Shown here: positions 7,573 through 46,141 of the stretch, piece by piece | How the letters are laid out: every line of letters starts with the position of its first letter | Position numbering within the stretch: position 1 is the first letter of the stretch | NCBI RefSeq assembly: GCF_002573715.1 | Contig: NZ_PDHM01000007.1 | Coordinates: forward strand, 67,809-131,808 | DNA: 64,000 nucleotides | DNA from: Paenibacillus sp. EZ-K15 | GTDB taxonomy: Bacteria > Bacillota > Bacilli > Paenibacillales > Paenibacillaceae | Reading direction: 5' to 3' | Position numbers and translations under genes: made by a program | The notes under the pieces: model-generated | Told to the model about the DNA's origin: nothing | The model's input: the letters and a program-made list of their open reading frames with translations, nothing else | Databases searched by the model: none

Positions 7573-7607
7573 ACAAGCCGGACCATGAAGGTGCCGGCTT
7601 GTTATTC
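7573..7607. terminator. Bidirectional Rho-independent terminator
   Basis: ACAAGCCGG at 7573-7581 pairs perfectly with CCGGCTTGT at 7594-7602. T-rich sequence follows on the plus strand, and the A-rich run before it gives a T-run for the minus strand. It lies between convergent operons and can serve both. Confidence 0.8.
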
Positions 7608-7667
7608 GTGCTTTGGAAAGGAAACCTTGTCCAATCCTTCACGCACGGCCGACAGCCATCCAACTTA

Positions 7668-36139: not shown

Positions 36140-37177
36140 ATGACTTTAAGTTTGCCGAACAAAGCTTGGCTCAAGCATCTAATCATTGCCGGTTCCACGA
36201 TGTTAGTGATGACCTTATTCATGGTTTTATTTGCGGATAAAGCTTTTGCCCACGGGTATGTCGATTCTCCAGGCAGCCGCGCCATTCTGTGTAAGCAGGG
36301 GCAAAATACCGATTGCGGCGCAATCGTGTATGAGCCTCAAAGCTTAGAAGCTCCTAAAGGCTGGCCGAATGCAGGTCCTGCCGATGGCAAAATCGCCAGT
36401 GCAGGCGGCGCGTTCCCTAAACTTGACGAGCAATCCGCAACTCGCTGGAGCAAAGTAAGCATTTCCCCGGGAACCACAACGTTCCAATGGCATTTGACAG
36501 CCAATCATGTGACGGCAAGCTGGAAATACTACATTACGAAAGACGGCTGGGATCAAAATGCTCCGCTGAGCAGAGCTTCGTTTGATCTGACGCCTTTCTG
36601 CTCCATTGACTACGGCGGTGTAAAACCTCCGACAAACTATGCGTCCACTTGTAACGTTCCTGCTAAATCCGGTTACCATGTCATTCTGGCGGTATGGGAA
36701 GTAGCTGACACACCTAACGCTTTCTATAACGTTATCGACGTGGACTTTGGCGGTGGCGGCGGAACTCCGAACCCAGGCGTACCGGCACCGACAGGACTTA
36801 CTTCCCCATCCCAAACCAACAACAGTGTTTCCTTGGCATGGGCAGCTTCCACAGGTGCTTCCAGTTACGAAATCTACCGTGACGGATCCCTTGTGGGTAC
36901 ATCCACTACAACCTCCTATACCAATACGGGGTTAGCCGAAGGAACGTCCTATACGTATACAGTGGTAGCTGTAAGCAGTACGGGCAGCAAATCTTCAGCA
37001 TCCGCTCCCCTCACCGTATCAACATCCGGAAGCGCAACGACCTATCCGGCATGGAATGCAACCGCCGTTTACTTAGGTGGCAGCAAAGTCAGCTACAACG
37101 GCGTGAACTATGAGGCAAAATGGTGGACTCAAGGCGAAACTCCTGGATCTGCCGATGTTTGGAAGGTCATCCCTTAA
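36140..37177 (+). CDS. Secreted chitin-active LPMO (AA10) with Fn3 and CBM5/12 domains
   Basis: A 345-residue secreted oxidative enzyme. The signal peptide ends at DKAFA, so mature residue one is His38 of HGYVDSPGSR. With His123 in TANHVTASWKYY this forms the copper histidine brace of auxiliary activity family 10. The AA10 domain runs to about residue 205. A glycine-rich linker, a fibronectin type III domain about 215-297 and a C-terminal chitin-binding CBM5/12 module with YPAWNATAVYLGGSKVSYNG and WWTQGETPG follow. It should oxidatively open crystalline chitin outside the cell. It is a single-gene unit with a cre-like site upstream and a strong terminator behind. Confidence 0.93.
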   Translation: MTLSLPNKAWLKHLIIAGSTMLVMTLFMVLFADKAFAHGYVDSPGSRAILCKQGQNTDCGAIVYEPQSLEAPKGWPNAGPADGKIASAGGAFPKLDEQSATRWSKVSISPGTTTFQWHLTANHVTASWKYYITKDGWDQNAPLSRASFDLTPFCSIDYGGVKPPTNYASTCNVPAKSGYHVILAVWEVADTPNAFYNVIDVDFGGGGGTPNPGVPAPTGLTSPSQTNNSVSLAWAASTGASSYEIYRDGSLVGTSTTTSYTNTGLAEGTSYTYTVVAVSSTGSKSSASAPLTVSTSGSATTYPAWNATAVYLGGSKVSYNGVNYEAKWWTQGETPGSADVWKVIP

Positions 37178-37902: not shown

Positions 37903-38664
37903 TCAAACCCTGTACACGGTAATGCCCCGTTCCTGAAACGGCCTGATATCCGAGTCGGAAGCCTCAGTACCGGTGACGAGGGTATGTATCGCGCTGTTGG
38001 GAGCGACCGTGTGCAGTGACAGCTTGCCAATCTTGCTGTGGTCGGTGACCACGACAATTTCGCCGGCGGCTTGAATCATGTTCTGTTTGGCCGGGACGAG
38101 CAGCGCTTCCGGGTGCATGAGGCCATGCTGAGGATGCAGGGCAGGGGTACCGATGAACGCTTTCTCGACATGCAGGGATTTCAGCACATGGTCGGTAAAC
38201 ATGCCGTTTAGCATATAACTCGATGGGTACAGCTCCCCGCCGGTCAGAATGACTTTGATTCCCGGAGCATCGCGAAGCTCAACAGCGACGTTCATATCGT
38301 TCGTAATGACCGTAATGTCCGAGCGGTGCACAAGATGCGTCGCAATATGAAGGGTGGTTGTTCCCGAATCAATGATGATATTCTCCCCGTCTTCCACAAG
38401 CGAAGCCGCAAGCTGACCGATGCGTATTTTCTCGTCCCGGTGAAAGTTGGTTCGCTCATTAAAGGATGGCTCGTTATGCGTCCATTGCTCCATGATGACC
38501 CCGCCATGTGTGCGCTTCAAAGCGCCTTCCTGTTCAATCTCCGCCAGATCACGGCGAATGGTGGCCGTGTGAACACCGAATTCCGATGCCAGCGCAGCAA
38601 CCGTTGCTGTTCGGTATTGCCTTACGTAATCAATGATCCTTTTCTTTCTTTCATGTGCCAGCAA
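37903..38664 (-). CDS. DeoR family regulator of the glycerophosphodiester operon
   Basis: A 253-residue DeoR-type regulator. The helix-turn-helix is TATVAALASEFGVHTATIRR followed by DLAEIEQEGALKRTHGG. The sugar-phosphate-binding domain shows IIIDSGTTTLHIATHL and VITNDMNVAVEL, and CID-like VVVTDHSKIGK near the end. It starts best with TTG at 38664 after AAGGGAG; another TTG ten codons earlier lacks a good site. It is divergent from the importer operon 360 bases away, so it probably represses that operon until a glycerol-phosphate type ligand binds, as GlpR does. Confidence 0.9.
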   Translation of the reverse strand: MLAHERKKRIIDYVRQYRTATVAALASEFGVHTATIRRDLAEIEQEGALKRTHGGVIMEQWTHNEPSFNERTNFHRDEKIRIGQLAASLVEDGENIIIDSGTTTLHIATHLVHRSDITVITNDMNVAVELRDAPGIKVILTGGELYPSSYMLNGMFTDHVLKSLHVEKAFIGTPALHPQHGLMHPEALLVPAKQNMIQAAGEIVVVTDHSKIGKLSLHTVAPNSAIHTLVTGTEASDSDIRPFQERGITVYRV

Positions 38665-39026
38665 TCGATAATTTCTCCCTTCCTGAATGGACAATGAGCT
38701 GTAGAGGTGTGTTTATACATACAATGCGCACTTTTGCTCTTTTATGCTTAAGGATTCCATGTCTTAATAGTGTACTCCCATTATGTTAATTCCATGTTAA
38801 ATCCCTTGATGCGAAGCGAATTTACAAAATCCGTACGAAGGTCTAACACTCTCCTAATATTGCACATCTACAATCAAATTAAATAAAAATGAACAAAAGT
38901 GATCATTACATGTGCATTTGATGCGTACTTATTATCAGGTGCATGTAAGGGATTTCATTTTTATGGATTCATTGATTTTTCGCTTGTCATGACAACATCA
39001 TTACACTTTCGTGAGGGGGATCGCTC
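38665..39026. promoter_or_regulatory. Divergent control region between DeoR gene and importer operon
   Basis: AATGAACA at 38888-38895 and TGATCATT at 38900-38907 form an inverted repeat with seven of eight matches and a four-base spacer, a plausible DeoR operator. A looser dyad, TACATGTGCA with GTGCATGTA, lies at about 38906-38947. Promoter hexamers are not clear. Confidence 0.5.
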
Positions 39027-40082
39027 TTGGCATCCATTGAATTTGTGAAAGTAAGCAAGTCGTTTGATCGTCAAACCGTCATCCAGGACCTGGATCTTAC
39101 CATCGAAGACGGAAAATTCACCGTGCTGGTCGGTCCGTCAGGCTGCGGGAAAACAACGCTCTTAAGGATGATCGCGGGCATTGACCCTCAAACCTCCGGT
39201 TCCGTTCTTATCGATGGCAAGGATGTTACGCGCATTGCACCGGGGAAGCGCGGCGTGGCCATGGTATTTCAGAATTACGCGATTTACCCGACGATGTCGG
39301 TCCGCGAGAATATCGAGTTTGGTCTCGTGAACAACAAAGTTCCCAAAGCCGAGCGTACACGTTTGGTGGAGACCATAGGGGCAACCGTTGGACTGAACGA
39401 TTACTTGGATCGTAAGCCTTCCACCTTGTCTGGCGGACAACGGCAACGAGTGGCTTTGGCCCGGGCGATGGTTAAAAATCCGTCCGTATTCCTGATGGAT
39501 GAGCCGCTGTCCAATCTGGATGCCAAGCTGAGAGTTCAGATGCGGATCGAGCTGATTGAGCTGCACAAGAAGCTGGGAACGACCTTTGTCTATGTGACTC
39601 ATGACCAAATCGAGGCGATGTCGATGGCAGATACCATCGTGCTCATGAACAAAGGCGTCATTCAGCAGGAAGCTCCGCCTGAAGTGGTGTACCGCGAGCC
39701 TAGCAATCTGTTTGCGGCCCAGTTTATCGGGGTTCCCCCCATGAACATTGCGCCGCTGGGCGACGATCGCACCACATTCGGATTCCGACCGGAGAGCGTT
39801 GTGATCGGAACAGAACCGGAGTCGTTCCATTATAGGGCCAAGGGTGAGGTCATCACGCGCGAAATGCTGGGCTCCGAGACAATTTATCAGGTAAGGACGA
39901 CGGAGGGCCAGGCCTTCATGGTGAAGTGCCAGGATGACAAATTCCATGTCGATCAGGAGGTATATCTCGGCGTGCCGGCGGATAAATTGTTTTTCTTCGG
40001 GGCGGATGAGAATCGGGTCGAAGAGCAGGACGTCCGCTATAGGGAGTTTATGGAGCGGCTGAGAGGGCTGGCTCATGGATAA
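39027..40082 (+). CDS. ABC transporter ATPase, UgpC/MalK type
   Basis: A 351-residue ATPase. Walker A is GPSGCGKT at 36-43, the signature LSGGQ at 134-138 and Walker B VFLMDEP at 154-160, with a switch histidine in [14 protein letters not shown]. The C-terminal third is the TOBE regulatory domain of the MalK/UgpC class. It starts with TTG eight bases after GAGGGGG. Its stop overlaps the next permease start by eight bases. A dedicated ATPase here contrasts with the Lpl-type operon in this window, which has none. Confidence 0.93.
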
Positions 40083-40953
40083 GAAGCGGATTTGGGAAGG
40101 GATCAGGCCCTATGTGCTAATCGCGCCGGCCATGGCGGGTATTATGCTGTTTGTGATGTATCCGGTAGGTTATCTGGTTTACTTAAGCCTGTTCAAATAC
40201 AACCTGATGAACAAAGACAAGAGCAAGTTTGTCGGACTGGACAATTTCACCCAGATTCTGGGTCGCGGGGATTTCTACAAAGCGTTATGGAACACTTCCA
40301 TCTATACAGTCGGCGTCGTGATTCTAACCATGCTGCTGTCTCTGTTGATTGCGGTGTGGCTGAACAAGAAGGGCCGTTTCAATTCGGTCGTTCAGGCCGG
40401 GATTTTCACGCCGCACGTCGTTTCCATTGTATCGATCTCGCTGGTCTGGCTGTGGCTGATGGAGCCGAATCAAGGACTTCTCAATTATCTGTTCAAGCTG
40501 GTGGGGCTCCCGCCGTCCGCATGGCTGCAAAGCTCCAAGACCGCATTGATATCCGTCATTATCGTATCGGTCTGGCAGGCCATCGGTTATTACACCCTGA
40601 TCATTGTGGCAGCCCTGCAGAGCATATCGCCAAGCATTTATGAAGCGGCGGCCCTGGATAATGCCAGCAGGTTCAAGGTGTTTTACAAAATCACATTGCC
40701 GATGATTTCGCCGCAGCTGTTTTTTATCCTGATCATCATGACGATCGGTTCCTTCAAAGTATTCGATACCGTTCAGGTGATGACAGGCGGAGGACCGAAT
40801 AATGCAACGACCACGCTTGTGTATTACATATACGGCTTCCGAACGACCAACATCGGTTATTCGGCTGCGACAGGCGTCGTGCTCATGGCCATTATCGGAT
40901 TGCTTACGTTCATCTATTTCCGGCTGCTGTCCAAGAAGGTCCATTATCAATAA
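40075..40953 (+). CDS. ABC transporter permease, UgpA/MalF type
   Basis: A 292-residue permease with six spans. The ATPase-contact EAA loop is IYEAAALDNASRFKVFYKIT near residue 196, and VMTGGGPNNATTTLVYYIY near the end is typical of UgpA/MalF-class subunits. The ATG overlaps the ATPase gene by eight bases, so translation is coupled. With its partner permease and the lipoprotein downstream it forms the membrane channel of the importer. Orthology to glycerol-3-phosphate systems is suggested mainly by the enzymes in this operon. Confidence 0.92.
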   Translation: MDKKRIWEGIRPYVLIAPAMAGIMLFVMYPVGYLVYLSLFKYNLMNKDKSKFVGLDNFTQILGRGDFYKALWNTSIYTVGVVILTMLLSLLIAVWLNKKGRFNSVVQAGIFTPHVVSIVSISLVWLWLMEPNQGLLNYLFKLVGLPPSAWLQSSKTALISVIIVSVWQAIGYYTLIIVAALQSISPSIYEAAALDNASRFKVFYKITLPMISPQLFFILIIMTIGSFKVFDTVQVMTGGGPNNATTTLVYYIYGFRTTNIGYSAATGVVLMAIIGLLTFIYFRLLSKKVHYQ

Positions 40954-40983
40954 GGCTTTGGCCATGCAGAAAGGAGGCACAGT

Positions 40984-41817
40984 TTGAAGACCTTTGACTT
41001 AAAAATCGTATGGACTGCGCTGGGCTATTTGCTGAAGGCCGCAGTGCTCATGATTTTCATCTTTCCGTTTCTGTGGATGATCTCCACATCCCTCCAGACA
41101 TTCCGGGAAACGATGACGTTTCCACCGACGTGGTTTCCGGCCTCGCCGCAATGGGGCAACTTCGCTGAGGCGATGAATGCAGGTCCTTTTCTTACCTATT
41201 TCAGGAACTCGGTTGTCGTTACCGGATCCATCATCGTTCTGCAGTTTCTGATCATGATCCCGGCCGCGTATGCATTTGCGAAGTATAAGTTTCCGGGAAA
41301 AACGCTGCTGTTCGGCATGATCCTTCTGGCATTCATGATCCCGGGTCAGGTTACGTTCATACCGGTCTATCTGATGATGGCAGATTGGGGATTAGTCAAA
41401 ACCCTGCTGCCGCAGATCATCCCGTTCATCTCGAATGCCTTCGGCATCTTCCTGCTGAGGCAGTACTTCATGCAGATTCCGGAGGAAATCATTGAAGCGG
41501 CCCGTCTTGATAATGCGAGCGAATTCAAAATCATTCGGAAAATCATGGTTCCCATGTCGAAGCCGGCACTTGCGACCATTGCGCTGTTCAGCTTTGTCAG
41601 TCACTGGAATGACTATTTCTGGCCGCTCGTCATGACCGATTCAGCTTCCGTCCGGCCGCTGACCCTGGGGATCGCCATGCTAAGGGAGACCGAGGGCATC
41701 AGCAACTGGCATATCATCATGGCCGGCAATGTGATTCTGGTGGTGCCCATCCTGCTTGTGTATGTATTCTGCTCGAAGCACATCGTGAAGGCTTTTGTTT
41801 ATTCAGGCATTAAATAA
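40984..41817 (+). CDS. ABC transporter permease, UgpE/MalG type
   Basis: A 277-residue permease with six spans. The EAA loop is EEIIEAARLDNASEFKIIRK near residue 165, and FLWMISTSLQTFRETMTFPP near the start is standard for the UgpE/MalG class. It begins with TTG directly after AAAGGAGGCACAG. It is the second membrane subunit, 30 bases behind the first permease and 62 bases before the binding lipoprotein gene. Confidence 0.92.
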   Translation: MKTFDLKIVWTALGYLLKAAVLMIFIFPFLWMISTSLQTFRETMTFPPTWFPASPQWGNFAEAMNAGPFLTYFRNSVVVTGSIIVLQFLIMIPAAYAFAKYKFPGKTLLFGMILLAFMIPGQVTFIPVYLMMADWGLVKTLLPQIIPFISNAFGIFLLRQYFMQIPEEIIEAARLDNASEFKIIRKIMVPMSKPALATIALFSFVSHWNDYFWPLVMTDSASVRPLTLGIAMLRETEGISNWHIIMAGNVILVVPILLVYVFCSKHIVKAFVYSGIK

Positions 41818-41879
41818 TTACAGGAAATAACAGGGTTCGGCAAGTCATAATCGAATGATTAATGGAGGAATGAGTCAAT

Positions 41880-43196
41880 ATGAAATCCAAATGGTATACA
41901 CTGCTGTCCGTCATTATGCTGTTCAGTTTGCTTGCCGCGTGTGGTAGTGGGGGAACTTCCGGTGATACGGGCAAAGCGCCGGGAAGCGGGGGAACCGAAG
42001 CCCCGTCCGGAGACAAAGGGAAAACTACAGTTCAGTTCTGGCACTCGCTGGGTGGCAAGAACGGGGAATACATGGACGCGCTCATCCAGCGTTTTAATGC
42101 ATCCCATGAGGACATCGAAGTGGTAGGCACCTTTCAGGGAAGTTATGACGAGACGGTAACCAAGCTGCAGCAAGCGATAGCCTCCGATACCGGTCCGGAT
42201 GTCAGCATGCTGGAGCGAGCCTACGTCCAGATGTTCGCCGATTCCGAAGTGCTTGAGGATCTGACGCCTTATCTTGAAGGCTCTGGTATCAGCGCCGATG
42301 ACTTTACGCCGGGGCTGATGGGACACTCCGTCTTCAATGATCAATTGGTATCGCTGCCGCTGAACCGTTCCACCCCGATTCTGCATGTGAACAAAACATT
42401 GCTGGATGAGCAGGGGCTGCAAATTCCGACCACATGGGAGGAGCTGAAGGAGGTCGCAAATGCGCTTGTAGTCAAGGAAGGCAGCGAGTATAAGCGATAC
42501 GGCGTTACGATGCCCTATGACACTTGGTATCCGATTGCCATGATCTCGCAGGCGGGCGGCACTTTCTTCAATGATGACAATACGTCGATCGGCTTTGGGG
42601 ATAACGGTGTCGGCGCCAAGATGTTCGCTTACCTTAAAGAACTGCAGAGCACAGGCGCCTTGTATTATCCGCCGGCTCAGGATTCCGGCAACATTGTGAA
42701 CAGCATGTTTGTGGAAGGCAAGGTCGGAATGATGTATCAATCTACGGGATCGATTGGCGGGTTGTCCAGCGCGGTGGATTTTGATTACGTGACAGCGTTC
42801 TTGCCTAAGGACGAAGTGTATGCGAATCCGACCGGAGGCGCGAATGTGACGATGCTGTCCTCTTCCAAGAACAAGGAAGCGGCATGGGAATTCATCCGGT
42901 GGATGGAGATGGAAGAGGAAGGCGGTCTTGAATTTATTTTGCAATCTGGCTACCTGCCATTCACGAAGAAGATGGTGGAGTCGGAGCAGATCCAAGAGCT
43001 GTGGGCCAAAGAACCGAACCGCAAAGTCGCTTATGATCAGCTGGAATTTGCCGTCGATACCAATAAGGACGTGGCATGGCCGGAGATTATGCATGAGTTC
43101 TTCTCGGCTATGGAAGCGATCATGTACGACAGCAAGGATATTCCGGCTACGCTGGATACCTTCAAGAAAGAGACGGAACGGATTTTGGCCCAATAA
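41880..43196 (+). CDS. ABC transporter solute-binding lipoprotein, UgpB-like
   Basis: A 438-residue lipoprotein. The lipobox LLAAC places the lipidated cysteine at residue 21, followed by a Gly/Ser/Thr linker. The mature part is a type-I sugar-binding fold, with TVQFWHSLGGKNGEYMDALI near residue 51 matching UgpB-like proteins and FMQSTGSIGG-like text (MMYQSTGSIGG) near 283. It is expected to capture glycerophosphodiesters or glycerol phosphate for the permeases upstream. The ligand is inferred from the next two genes, not from binding residues. A general oligosaccharide role remains possible. Confidence 0.9.
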   Translation: MKSKWYTLLSVIMLFSLLAACGSGGTSGDTGKAPGSGGTEAPSGDKGKTTVQFWHSLGGKNGEYMDALIQRFNASHEDIEVVGTFQGSYDETVTKLQQAIASDTGPDVSMLERAYVQMFADSEVLEDLTPYLEGSGISADDFTPGLMGHSVFNDQLVSLPLNRSTPILHVNKTLLDEQGLQIPTTWEELKEVANALVVKEGSEYKRYGVTMPYDTWYPIAMISQAGGTFFNDDNTSIGFGDNGVGAKMFAYLKELQSTGALYYPPAQDSGNIVNSMFVEGKVGMMYQSTGSIGGLSSAVDFDYVTAFLPKDEVYANPTGGANVTMLSSSKNKEAAWEFIRWMEMEEEGGLEFILQSGYLPFTKKMVESEQIQELWAKEPNRKVAYDQLEFAVDTNKDVAWPEIMHEFFSAMEAIMYDSKDIPATLDTFKKETERILAQ

Positions 43197-43222
43197 CAAC
43201 TGGTAAAGGAGTGGCAGGACAT

Positions 43223-43990
43223 ATGATCGAACGACTACGGGAACCATCCTGTACGATGGTGGCTGCACACCGCGGGTATAAATCAGCTTATCCGGAAAAT
43301 ACGCTGCTGGCCTTTCGCAAGGCGCTGGAGTTAGGCGTAGATATGCTGGAGTTTGATCTCCGGCTGACGCTTGATAAGGAAGTGGTGGTTATCCATGATG
43401 CAACGGTTCAGCGTACGACGAGCGGCGCTGGCGAGGTGAGGGATTTTACGCTGGAGGAACTGAAATCGTTGGATGCGGGCGGCTGGTTCGCTCGGGAGTT
43501 TGAAGGATTGAAGATCCCGACGCTTGCGGAGCTATGCGAGCTGCTCCGGGAATATCCCGAAGTTCTGTGCAACGTGGAGATTAAGCCAAGCCCTGATGCC
43601 AAAGAGGCCGCAGACCTGGCGGTTGATGTGCTGAACCAATACGGGTACCTGCCGCGCTGTGTATTCACCTGTTTCGATGCAGAAGTTCTGACGCATATTC
43701 ATGATACGCATGGTCTGAAGACACAGGGCTTCCCGGGTGGGAAAATGTCCCGATTTGTCTTCGAGGAGGATGGAACCTACTCCAAGATGTGGGCAATCGG
43801 CGTAGAGATGTCGCTGCTTACGCCGGAGCTCGTTGCCCGGTTCCAGGAACAGGGGCTGCTGGTCTGGAGCTATTGCCCGGACGATGAGGAGGGTGTCCGC
43901 TATTCGCTGGAATGCGGGGTTACCGGCATGACCTGCAATAACCCCCTTCCGGCGCTGGCGATGATCGGAAAGAAGGGCACGCGGATATGA
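43223..43990 (+). CDS. Cytoplasmic glycerophosphodiester phosphodiesterase (UgpQ type)
   Basis: A 255-residue TIM-barrel phosphodiesterase. The catalytic His16 is in VAAHRGYKSAYPENT, the metal ligands are in DMLEFDLRLT, and the second catalytic histidine is in VVVIHDATVQRTT. There is no signal peptide, so it acts on imported glycerophosphodiesters, releasing glycerol phosphate and an alcohol. The ATG at 43223 is used here; an in-frame GTG lies too close to AAAGGAG. The next gene overlaps by four bases. Which glycerol-phosphate enantiomer it releases cannot be read from sequence, but the next gene suggests glycerol-1-phosphate. Confidence 0.93.
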   Translation: MIERLREPSCTMVAAHRGYKSAYPENTLLAFRKALELGVDMLEFDLRLTLDKEVVVIHDATVQRTTSGAGEVRDFTLEELKSLDAGGWFAREFEGLKIPTLAELCELLREYPEVLCNVEIKPSPDAKEAADLAVDVLNQYGYLPRCVFTCFDAEVLTHIHDTHGLKTQGFPGGKMSRFVFEEDGTYSKMWAIGVEMSLLTPELVARFQEQGLLVWSYCPDDEEGVRYSLECGVTGMTCNNPLPALAMIGKKGTRI

Positions 43991-45207
43991 CCTCCATTTT
44001 ATCGAATATCCGAAGTTTGGCGGCGCATTTACCTGCTAGGCAGCTTTCGAATCTGGACGAAGTGGAGTCGATTCAGATCCAGTCCGGAGCTCTACGCGAG
44101 GTCGCGGGTTACCTTGAGACGAAACAGTGGACCTCGGTGGTGATGGTCGTAGACGGCGATACTTATGACGTCGCGGGCCAGCCGCTTGCAAACCTGCTCA
44201 CGAAATCCTCGATTCAGGTCCAAGTTACCAAGCTTCTTCCTGATCGGAAGGGAGATGTTATCGCGGATGAGGTTTCCCTGATTCAGGTCATCCTGGATAT
44301 CCAGCAAAGCAGGGCGAAGGCGGTGCTTGCGGTAGGCGGGGGAACGATTCACGATATTAGCCGGTACGCCGCTTATACTGCGGGTATCCCGTTCATCTCG
44401 GTACCCACGGCCGCTTCGGTGGATGGATTTAATTCCAAGGGAGCGCCCATCATTATACGGGGCGAGAAGAAGACGATTCCAGCTATTGGACCGAGCGCGA
44501 TTTTTGCGGATGTCGATATTCTCATGTCGGCTCCCCCGCAGCTTACCGCGGCCGGGTTCGGGGATATGCTGGGCAAGTATACGTCCCTGTTCGACTGGAA
44601 ATTCGGCAGTCTGGTGGCCGATGAACCCTATTTGCAGATCTCGGCGGATATTACGCGATCCGCGCTCAACCAATGCGTGAACGGGGTTGAGCAGATTGGG
44701 AAGCGAACCGAGGAGGGTGTACGCATCTTAATGGGGGCGCTCGTCGAATCCGGCTTAGCCATGCTGCTGTTCGGTCAATCCCATCCGGCTTCAGGCTCGG
44801 AGCATCATCTGTCCCACTATTGGGAGATGGAGTTTATTCGGCTAGGGGAGAAGCAGCTGCTGCACGGAGCCAAGGTGGGTGCCGCTTGCGTGGAAATCTC
44901 GAAGCTGTATCACCGTCTTGGGGAACAGGGGCTTGAGATGAACAGAGGCGCCTCCGGAGGTGCGAATGACATTGCACTTCGGATCACGCAGCATTGGAAC
45001 GAAATCCGGTCGCATATAATGCAAATCCCGCAACCTGCAGAGCTGGCCGATCTGATGCGCTCGGTTGGCGGACCAGCCGGGGTATCGGAGCTTCCGATCA
45101 AGAGCGAATTGCTGAAGCGGAGCCTGGGTGAAGCCCACAAGGTTCGAAACAGTCGGTACACGCTGCTCCATGCCTATAATGAACAGGGAGCCCTATTCGT
45201 AAACTAA
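43987..45207 (+). CDS. sn-Glycerol-1-phosphate dehydrogenase-like protein (AraM/EgsA family)
   Basis: A 406-residue metal-dependent dehydrogenase. The NAD-binding motif VGGGTIHDISRY begins at residue 117, PTAASVDGFNSKGAP follows at about 140, and metal-binding residues include the histidines of GSEHHLSHYWEME near 273 and Asp in GFGDMLGKY. These fit the AraM/EgsA group, which interconverts dihydroxyacetone phosphate and sn-glycerol-1-phosphate, rather than the G3P enzyme GpsA or GlpD. The start overlaps the phosphodiesterase stop as ATGA. In an uptake operon it may run in the catabolic direction, oxidising G1P for glycolysis. Confidence 0.87.
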   Translation: MTSILSNIRSLAAHLPARQLSNLDEVESIQIQSGALREVAGYLETKQWTSVVMVVDGDTYDVAGQPLANLLTKSSIQVQVTKLLPDRKGDVIADEVSLIQVILDIQQSRAKAVLAVGGGTIHDISRYAAYTAGIPFISVPTAASVDGFNSKGAPIIIRGEKKTIPAIGPSAIFADVDILMSAPPQLTAAGFGDMLGKYTSLFDWKFGSLVADEPYLQISADITRSALNQCVNGVEQIGKRTEEGVRILMGALVESGLAMLLFGQSHPASGSEHHLSHYWEMEFIRLGEKQLLHGAKVGAACVEISKLYHRLGEQGLEMNRGASGGANDIALRITQHWNEIRSHIMQIPQPAELADLMRSVGGPAGVSELPIKSELLKRSLGEAHKVRNSRYTLLHAYNEQGALFVN

Positions 45208-45223
45208 GGGTCCACATGCAATG

Positions 45224-45280
45224 AAATAAGGCTGTTCCCTCAAGCAGATCATTCTGCTTGATAGGGGACAGCCTTATTTG
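45224..45280. terminator. Large bidirectional terminator
   Basis: AAATAAGGCTGTTCCC pairs with its near complement ending in GGGGACAGCCTTATTT, with an inner AGCAGA/TCTGCT stem. It ends the importer operon and lies against the convergent sigma gene. Confidence 0.8.
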
Positions 45281-45299
45281 CTTCTATCCAGCTGTGCTT

Positions 45300-45755
45300 T
45301 TATTCGGACTGGTCTTCTGGAGTTGGCCAGCCGTTCCAAGCCCCCTCCGTACTATGGATAAGTTGGGCCGCTTCTTTGGCTGTATAGGAGAAGAAATCGA
45401 CAAGGATGATAAGGACGGTCTGAAGGGCGGTGAGTTGGGATGCAAGCAGCTCCAGCGATTCCCTAACCAAGAAGCGATGGTCATGATATGCCTCGCGTTC
45501 GCCAGCATCTGCCTGTAGAACGGGCTTTTTGTTCTGCTTACGGTACATATTAATCCAGGTGGTCTGTGCTATCCGGTATAGATAGGCTTTGGTGACCTTG
45601 CGATTAGGCGACTGTTCAAGAGCATGATGGACCTTGATCAGCGATTCTTGCACGATATCCTCAGCGTCCCACTTGGAACCGGATGCAAGCTGCATGCAAT
45701 AGCTCCTAAGGTCGGGTAACAGCTGGGATATATTATCGTTGAATGTAAATGTCAC
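45300..45755 (-). pseudogene. ECF-type sigma factor, C-terminally truncated
   Basis: A 151-codon open frame with a normal region 2 (LPDLRSYCMQLASGSKWDAE, then DIVQESLIKVHHALEQS) and most of region 4 (LLASQLTALQTVLIILVDFF, SYTAKEAAQLIHSTEGA). After STEGA, where the recognition helix would continue VKAALHRAR-like, the frame reads WNGWPTPEDQSE and stops. The +1 frame there gives LERLANSRRPVR and another 11 residues before its own stop, so a frameshift or deletion is likely. The DNA-recognition helix is lost and function is doubtful. GTG with TAGGAG is the best start; an ATG 13 codons earlier lacks a site. Confidence 0.6.
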
Positions 45756-46141
45756 AAGCGGCTCACTCCTACTTAGGGTGCTGATACATTCCATATAAAC
45801 TCAAGAAATTCCTGCAACATGTGAGCAACGACTAAAGATATATGAAAATATTGATATACATTTATGTCTTTTGGACTAGATAAACCCCTGAATAATTCGC
45901 GTTTCCACGATGATGGCGAATTGTGTAAAATGTCTCATTAACCTCTCAAAAAACGAACATACCCCACCGATAACTATAAAGTGGAGTCTTATTTCACCAT
46001 TTTATACCATAATTTTTCGACGTAATTTGTTCATTTTTGTTTGTAGAGAGAAAGTCCTTACAGGAAAAAGAGCACCTGCAAAAATTTTTGGACGAATGAT
46101 CAGATAGGACCCGAGCACTATTTTTGGGGAGGGTTTACAGC
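45756..46141 (+). promoter_or_regulatory. AT-rich region with a candidate motility-sigma promoter for the MCP
   Basis: CAAA at 45947-45950 and ACCGATAA at 45966-45973 are 15 bases apart, resembling the flagellar sigma-D pattern TAAA-N15-GCCGATAT. The match is three of four plus six of eight. The leader to the MCP start would be about 160 bases. Nothing else was recognised. Confidence 0.4.

Follow-up and report, generated by a model that had tools for sequence, protein, structure and literature searches.

In the 64,000-nucleotide stretch of Paenibacillus sp. EZ-K15 analysed here (the window; contig NZ_PDHM01000007.1 of assembly GCF_002573715.1, host genome 7.26 Mb), a DeoR-family regulator gene diverges from six genes encoding a UgpC-A-E-B-like importer, a glycerophosphodiester phosphodiesterase of the GDPD family and an AraM/EgsA-type sn-glycerol-1-phosphate (G1P) dehydrogenase. 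This set is probably a catabolic operon under local regulation, serving to salvage glycerophosphate esters that yield G1P when broken down. In relatives the dehydrogenase slot can be filled by either of two enzymes, AraM or a TarJ-like one, in clusters that otherwise match. Bacteria shed G1P-configured material originating from phosphatidylglycerol and lipoteichoic acid (LTA), and archaeal lipids are built on G1P; the operon is a candidate route for this compound into central metabolism, complete with regulator and transporter, in a cultivable Paenibacillus. AraM/EgsA, usually discussed as an enzyme of lipid synthesis, would thereby be recast as possibly catabolic.

Organization of the operon

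The regulator gene lies on the minus strand (37903–38694; Pfam DeoRC 168.8 bits, HTH_DeoR 57.2 bits), and its start in most relatives is ten codons downstream of the call in the window, giving a protein of 253 residues. The plus strand carries, in order, a UgpC-like ATP-binding cassette (ABC) ATPase (39027–40082; Pfam ABC_tran 128.1 bits; NCBIfam UgpC 383 bits against a cut-off of 432), a UgpA-like permease (40075–40953; Pfam BPD_transp_1 74.9 bits; best NCBIfam model UgpA, 173 bits against 335), a UgpE-like permease (40984–41817; Pfam BPD_transp_1 64.8 bits; best NCBIfam model UgpE, 125 bits against 297), a UgpB-like lipoprotein predicted to bind the substrate (41880–43196; Pfam SBP_bac_8 148.6 bits), the predicted cytoplasmic GDPD (43211–43990; Pfam GDPD 139.8 bits) and the predicted AraM/EgsA-type G1P dehydrogenase (43987–45207; Pfam Fe-ADH_2 120.1 bits). 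From UgpC through AraM the intergenic distances are −8, 30, 62, 14 and −4 bases. Open reading frames (ORFs) and Pfam/NCBIfam matches bear out the seven genes at the positions and in the divergent arrangement given by a preliminary description of this DNA, and the gene coordinates reproduce the four-base GDPD/AraM overlap (43987–43990) that it had noted. Its statement that the GDPD is signal-less likewise holds, as the protein has no hydrophobic N-terminus and its best 15-residue hydropathy is 0.39, compared with 2.43 for UgpB.

Conservation of the linkage in Paenibacillaceae

The AraM survey covered one genome per species in 84,980 species, and the best 80 of 318 confirmed AraM relatives were analysed; this set favours the window's own clade and overlaps the family sample of 148 genomes (e.g. 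loci L041 and L103). A comparison of AraM neighbourhoods had been proposed in the preliminary description, for which absence of the linkage from relatives would have spoken against its reading. The linkage with GDPD and Ugp genes does recur, DeoR and UgpCAEB adjoining AraM at 19 of the 80 nearest AraM loci. Three gene orders are found: DeoR divergent from CAEB-GDPD-(HAD)-AraM, as in the window (6 of 19, HAD being a phosphatase gene present in some loci), (HAD)-AraM-DeoR-CAEB-GDPD (11 of 19), and DeoR-AraM-CAEB-GDPD, with AraM between DeoR and UgpC (2 of 19, both Cohnella). DeoR orthologues (71–100% identity) are present at all 19 loci, as is a GDPD-family gene 3′ of UgpB, recognized by BLAST in 18 cases and by Pfam at L111. 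Among the 61 unlinked AraM loci none has a BLAST-recognizable GDPD within 8 kb, a count made with the window GDPD as query, which a divergent GDPD would escape as that of L111 did, and covering 8 kb on both sides for 50 loci and less than 8 kb on one side for 11. By context these 61 comprise 14 arabinose-type loci, 15 with a HAD gene, 1 with the same DeoR only and 31 others.

In the AraM tree the linked loci group in one 23-row cluster (support 86/74) of which 20 rows are linked, the other members being L119, L126 and L130, and linked context requires 3 label changes compared with 18.3 when labels are shuffled. The linkage thus appears, from these gene orders and this tree, to have arisen mainly once and to have survived reshuffling of gene order. 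The ORFs flanking 15 of the 19 linked loci, compared by eye, are similar in near relatives and dissimilar across groups. At three linked loci (L104, L105 and L111) the GDPD is non-orthologous, only 21–24% identical to that of the window while matching Pfam GDPD in each case, and GDPD activity therefore seems more important than gene ancestry. A chance neighbourhood, or plain synteny without function, would be compatible with one main origin in one family; we regard it as very improbable in view of the three gene orders, the differing flanks, the non-orthologous swap of both GDPD and dehydrogenase, and a common operator (below).

In the family sample, where the AraM tally covers 55 of 85 AraM places, mostly the higher ranked, 6 linked loci were counted among the 55 with the window excluded. 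Relatives of UgpB at E ≤ 1e-120 occupy 10 places in 9 of the 148 genomes, and 8 of these are orthologues (at least 69% identity). GDPD and AraM share the cluster with the UgpB orthologue in 7 of the 8 cases, window included, and the eighth (L079) has GDPD together with a TarJ-like dehydrogenase where AraM would be. The two more distant relatives (57–58%; L081 and L082) belong to Ugp-GDPD clusters without AraM. Within the 19 kb read for L083 in genome G105, a GDPD orthologue stands without any of the other genes.

Of 299 genomes sampled across the phylum, 30 encode AraM at E ≤ 1e-40, and neighbourhoods were read for 20 of the 34 places that lie outside the family. Several are arabinose-type; L188 has a divergent DeoR, AraM and HAD; and L185 has AraM, a kinase and UgpCAEB. 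In the last (L185:1120-9142) RpiB, AraM and a ribulokinase lie 5′ of the importer (UgpC 62% identical), whose binding protein keeps the phosphate-contact residues and was found in 1 of the 299 genomes, its own. L185 was dropped as an independent glycerophosphate case, since its kinase is a ribulokinase and RpiB is present, and the cluster may be a pentose system.

A TarJ-like dehydrogenase in the AraM slot

At L079 a 365-residue zinc dehydrogenase stands between an operator-like site (7603–7624) and DeoR. Its best match among solved structures is ribulose-5-phosphate reductase 1 (PDB 6xh9; E 1e-55, 193 bits), the next structure scoring 58 bits. Enzymes of this type (58–73% identical) occur in 12 of 394 family genomes, that of L079 included, and all 12 neighbourhoods were read. 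In 7 of the 12 (L079, L218, L220, L221, L222, L223 and L228) the TarJ-like gene accompanies the same UgpAEB (UgpB 61–75%) and GDPD cluster, the assignment of the enzyme having been checked against solved structures in two of these seven (L079 and L222). UgpC was found in four of the seven and not in L079, L218 or L220; at L079 the UgpA and DeoR genes are broken up. Of the remaining neighbourhoods, L219 has the same DeoR and GDPD with a different transporter adjoining, L226 has GDPD at a contig end, L224 and L225 have DeoR only, and L227 has none of the set. Overall, DeoR of the same subfamily (68–78%) and GDPD are each present at 9 of the 12 loci. AraM occurs at none of the 12, and BLAST detected no TarJ-like enzyme at the 19 AraM-linked loci. 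TarI, the usual partner of TarJ, was not recognized by eye near six listed TarJ-like loci, where no profile search for it was made.

TarJ fits ribitol 5-phosphate, a unit of wall teichoic acid (WTA). Judged from their sequence relatives, AraM would suit G1P, the repeating unit of LTA, and the TarJ-like enzyme a ribitol teichoic acid unit, so that either the importer accepts both kinds of fragment or both dehydrogenases share one substrate. As the binding proteins of the two cluster types differ consistently at residue 343 alone, one shared substrate is suggested, which leaves open the dehydrogenase that fits it. With a TarJ-like enzyme replacing AraM in related clusters, the reading is widened from G1P alone to polyol phosphates of the teichoic acid type. 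The preliminary description had proposed salvage of G1P. Its proposal is partly supported, by the linkage in relatives and by the G1P stereochemistry of LTA and phosphatidylglycerol, while its restriction to G1P gives way to this wider scope.

The same observations bear on an alternative in which the imported compound is another polyol phosphate diester, for example ribitol-phosphate teichoic acid or a mixed glycerol-ribitol compound, AraM oxidizing something other than G1P or being interchangeable with the TarJ-like enzyme on one substrate. Such a substrate would account for the TarJ-like enzyme in AraM's slot at 7 of 12 loci, for nearly indistinguishable binding proteins and for the loss of a glycerol-contacting arginine (Arg393, below); it is also in keeping with the arabinose-type context of 14 of the 80 AraM loci and with L185, where AraM is paired with ribulokinase and RpiB. 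The core motifs and likely metal ligands are, however, invariant between the window AraM and arabinose-type copies, and the nearest solved relatives of AraM are G1P dehydrogenases. We consider this alternative rather unlikely.

A shared putative operator

A motif search of 20 control regions recovered half-sites of the TTGNTCA type, arranged in tandem at a spacing of about one helical turn, with a score of 331 compared with 204–213 in ten dinucleotide shuffles given equal effort. The run forces one site per region; the near-copies L099 and L100 were dropped, and L130 and L151 were included in discovery. In the window the putative DeoR operator lies at 38887–38906 (minus strand), and a second, weaker operator-like site with 2 mismatches to the pattern lies in the same intergenic region (38724–38743, plus strand). 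When the host genome was scanned with a pattern fitted to the lautus-type site, one exact match (38887–38906, by design) and six matches with two mismatches, the weaker intergenic site among them, were obtained, and the reversed control of that pattern gave no match in the same genome. The 12 TarJ-like loci played no part in building the motif, and 8 of them score above 18.2 (up to 31.2), with the site 5′ of the leading gene; L220, L224, L225 and L227 fall under this threshold, which is the 99th percentile of random stretches (maximum 29.3) drawn from the same loci and so possibly holding true sites. DeoR probably acts via the tandem TTGNTCA sites. The operator was also considered as a mark of unlinked AraM and rejected, as L119 and L126 score 5.1 and 2.1 and have no site.

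Ligand contacts of the UgpB-like binding protein

The UgpB-like protein carries the lipobox LAAC, with Cys21 invariant in 21 rows, and its nearest solved relative is PDB 9lff, in which residue numbers equal those of PMC12718374 plus 20 and match Phaeobacter UgpB. Phaeobacter UgpB binds G1P (Kd 2.36 µM) and G3P (sn-glycerol-3-phosphate; 0.80 µM) within three-fold, and growth on G1P is demonstrated, according to the part of PMC12718374 available to us. Ugp systems, which the preliminary description took as normally feeding G3P, therefore need not do so. The contacts Tyr64, Glu88, Ser143, Ser266 and Tyr342 (numbering of PMC12718374) are retained in the window protein as Y89, E112, S164, S288 and Y358. 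The four phosphate contacts Y89, S164, S288 and Y358 occur together in 23 of 23 relatives more than 50% identical (L079, L081 and L082 among them; L106 and L118 dropped out or merged) compared with 1 of 21 other CUT1 proteins (11 clusters when grouped at 60% identity), the lone exception being L185. Since Arg393 is lost and the Trp clamp uncertain (below), a larger ligand is possible, and on these residues a diester is no less likely to be the ligand than free glycerol phosphate. An AlphaFold2 model of the protein (mean pLDDT 67.6) is too weak to place the clamp. In Cohnella sp. REN36 (L106:14422-15758) UgpB is in two ORFs, through gene damage or sequencing error.

AraM and the source of G1P

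Over residues 25–402 the window AraM matches a glycerol-1-phosphate dehydrogenase (PDB 9h4x) at E 9e-84. Its D193, H273, H274 and H293 are invariant in 16 rows that include arabinose-type copies, and D193, H273/H274 and H293 are presumably the Asp/His/His metal ligands. The protein is 93% identical to AraM of Paenibacillus lautus NBRC 15380. A second AraM in the genome (50% identical) shares its operon with AraA, AraD and AraB, all three of which exceed their NCBIfam cut-offs, and groups with the arabinose-type copies; the model NF002022 gives 205 bits for the window AraM and 209 for the arabinose-operon AraM, so that both fail its cut-off of 413, which does not separate them.

AraM/EgsA is described, in the portion of PMC5059525 consulted, as an enzyme of G1P synthesis. 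One may accordingly suppose that uptake of the ordinary Ugp/UgpQ type yields G3P and that AraM is biosynthetic, imported carbon passing through dihydroxyacetone phosphate (DHAP) to G1P for PcrB lipids. PcrB is encoded in every one of the 148 family genomes, and related Ugp-GDPD clusters without AraM exist (L081 and L082), as this supposition would allow. Yet AraM is found in only 78 of the 148 at E ≤ 1e-22 (76 at 1e-40 with a single protein), the host genome has another AraM, and PcrB cannot explain a TarJ-like enzyme in the same slot; we consider the biosynthetic route rather unlikely here. A role of AraM solely in feeding PcrB is weakened by the same counts. PcrB occurs without AraM in 70 of the 148 genomes, in which its G1P comes perhaps from turnover of phosphatidylglycerol or LTA.

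HAD-IIA (NagD/AraL-type) phosphatase genes stand directly 5′ of AraM in many Paenibacillaceae, often with DeoR and without a transporter (L043, L049, L054, L108, L130 and L138). AraM and such a phosphatase could together form a relief route for excess triose phosphate, from DHAP through G1P to glycerol. HAD-IIA is found near AraM at 7 of the 19 linked loci and at 15 of the 61 others (those not of arabinose type), and the subfamily includes glycerol-3-phosphate phosphatases (PDB 7po7 and 4i9f). There is no HAD gene, however, in the window operon or in 12 of the 19 linked loci, and B. subtilis AraL, of the same subfamily, showed no activity on glycerol 3-phosphate (PMC3207120, from partial text, G1P not being among the substrates seen there), which makes the relief route quite improbable. 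In the light of the TarJ-like exchange both the biosynthetic and the relief explanations weigh less and another polyol substrate weighs more, whereas salvage of G1P-yielding esters stands unchanged as the favoured reading.

The phosphodiesterase and a proposed salvage pathway

Residues H20, E47, D49, H62 and K125 of the GDPD are invariant in 22 rows, and we take the His, Glu, Asp and His (H20, E47, D49 and H62) to have catalytic roles. The glycerol phosphate is G1P in LTA and in the head group of phosphatidylglycerol, and G3P in WTA (PMC7086022, from partial text), in agreement with the stereochemistry given in the preliminary description. GlpQ of B. subtilis is characterized in the same partial text as acting on the cell wall, where it cuts WTA and not LTA-type units. 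Seven GDPD matches and one Zn_dep_PLPC match (39.8 bits) are present in the host genome. PcrB has a weak GDPD match (41 bits) ∼4 kb away, and a further GDPD is separated by ∼9 kb from AraM of the arabinose operon (G000:C20:11773-16929 and G000:C10:85406-96187).

In the pathway that we favour, the UgpB-like lipoprotein would capture glycerophosphodiesters (glycerophosphoglycerol, LTA fragments) and/or free glycerol phosphate, and UgpC-A-E would import the captured ligand. The GDPD would, as its family suggests, split diesters in the cytoplasm into polyol phosphate and alcohol, and AraM, we infer, would oxidize G1P to DHAP. To our knowledge, G3P-specific enzymes cannot use G1P. The G1P could arise where the GDPD leaves the phosphate on the sn-1 glycerol, or it could be made outside the cell, e.g. 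by phospholipase C acting on phosphatidylglycerol, and then be imported, in which case the pathway needs no G1P-releasing GDPD. The module would pair one importer and diesterase with whichever polyol-phosphate dehydrogenase suits the product, and the HAD-IIA phosphatase, where present, might be a second outlet.

Several points weigh against salvage of G1P-yielding esters. The operon's proteins are known here from their sequences alone, and the importer can be filed only as Ugp-like, its best NCBIfam models being Ugp yet all under cut-off. Arg393, which contacts the glycerol hydroxyls in G1P-binding UgpB, is not kept and aligns to Met403, and the Trp clamp corresponds to Tyr213/Trp216 by one alignment and falls inside an insertion by another. 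Between AraM-linked and TarJ-linked clusters the binding protein has a single near-fixed difference (residue 343, E versus M). The GlpQ of B. subtilis, a related enzyme, is strictly G3P-specific by the available part of PMC7086022, and PcrB, a user of G1P, is universal in the family sample. The linkage to AraM goes back mainly to a single origin, in a modestly supported cluster, with three of its 23 rows lacking the transporter and two of these the operator, and none of the 20 AraM loci read outside the family has a Ugp-GDPD cluster (GDPD by BLAST).

More tentatively, the two cluster forms might be variants of one exchangeable module for teichoic acid salvage, in which importer and diesterase work with one of two enzymes: AraM, acting on G1P that stems from LTA or phosphatidylglycerol, or a TarJ-like enzyme operating in reverse on the ribitol 5-phosphate of WTA. 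The GDPD of the AraM form would then release G1P, the opposite handedness to GlpQ, and an enzyme of synthesis would have been turned degradative in both forms. The TarJ-like sister form suggests a general design for recycling teichoic acid units.

Relation to known systems

The E. coli ugpBAECQ operon encodes a CUT1 importer that takes up glycerol phosphate and glycerophosphodiesters, together with a cytoplasmic GDPD, and is not known to contain a dehydrogenase, DeoR or HAD gene. The window operon resembles it in uniting the four Ugp-type subunits (C, A, E and B) with a GDPD predicted to be cytoplasmic, and differs in its added dehydrogenase and DeoR and in Ugp model scores under cut-off. The araABDLMNPQ-abfA operon of B. 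subtilis is not known to carry a GDPD. In it, too, a G1P dehydrogenase has a HAD-IIA phosphatase and a CUT1 importer as neighbours, but with arabinose genes, AraR control and an AraM described as a G1P maker (PMC3207120 and PMC5059525, both in part). The Phaeobacter UgpB/GpxB transporters of G1P and G3P share the UgpB-type binding protein, with the five contact residues retained in ours; their host is a marine Gram-negative, and PMC12718374 (2025), in the part consulted and by a search for terms, names neither AraM nor any other G1P-oxidizing catabolic enzyme that would feed G1P to central metabolism. GlpQ belongs to the same GDPD superfamily and frees glycerol phosphate from teichoic-acid-type diesters, but is G3P-only and acts at the cell wall, whereas the window GDPD is predicted to be cytoplasmic (PMC7086022, partial text). 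TarJ of ribitol teichoic acid synthesis (PDB 6xh9), which among solved structures is closest to the dehydrogenase standing in for AraM in the sister clusters, has no counterpart in the window.

Searches of open-access literature, a scope outside which most subscription journals lie, retrieved no paper with a title or abstract describing AraM within a Ugp-GDPD operon; one of the papers listed, PMC9880548, carries isolated mentions of the terms. Already known are Ugp with a cytoplasmic GDPD, the pairing of AraM with a HAD phosphatase in the ara operon of B. subtilis, and G1P uptake (PMC12718374, 2025). The new part is the exchangeable polyol-phosphate dehydrogenase, the literature comparison having covered AraM with Ugp-GDPD and not the TarJ-like exchange.

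Neighbouring features

AraM is followed by a terminator-like hairpin (45208–45295, plus strand; −43.6 kcal/mol, z −6.4), which a terminator consensus scan did not report; a promoter scan gave 7 sites compared with 6.6 expected. Beyond the hairpin, positions 45300–45794 encode a 164-residue protein with sigma-70 region 2 only, which may be a truncated copy, similar ORFs at L101 and L102 having ∼250 residues by eye. On the other side of the operon, a secreted LPMO_10-type polysaccharide monooxygenase with fn3 and CBM5/12 domains (36140–37177) is encoded upstream of DeoR, as it is at L099, L101 and L102.

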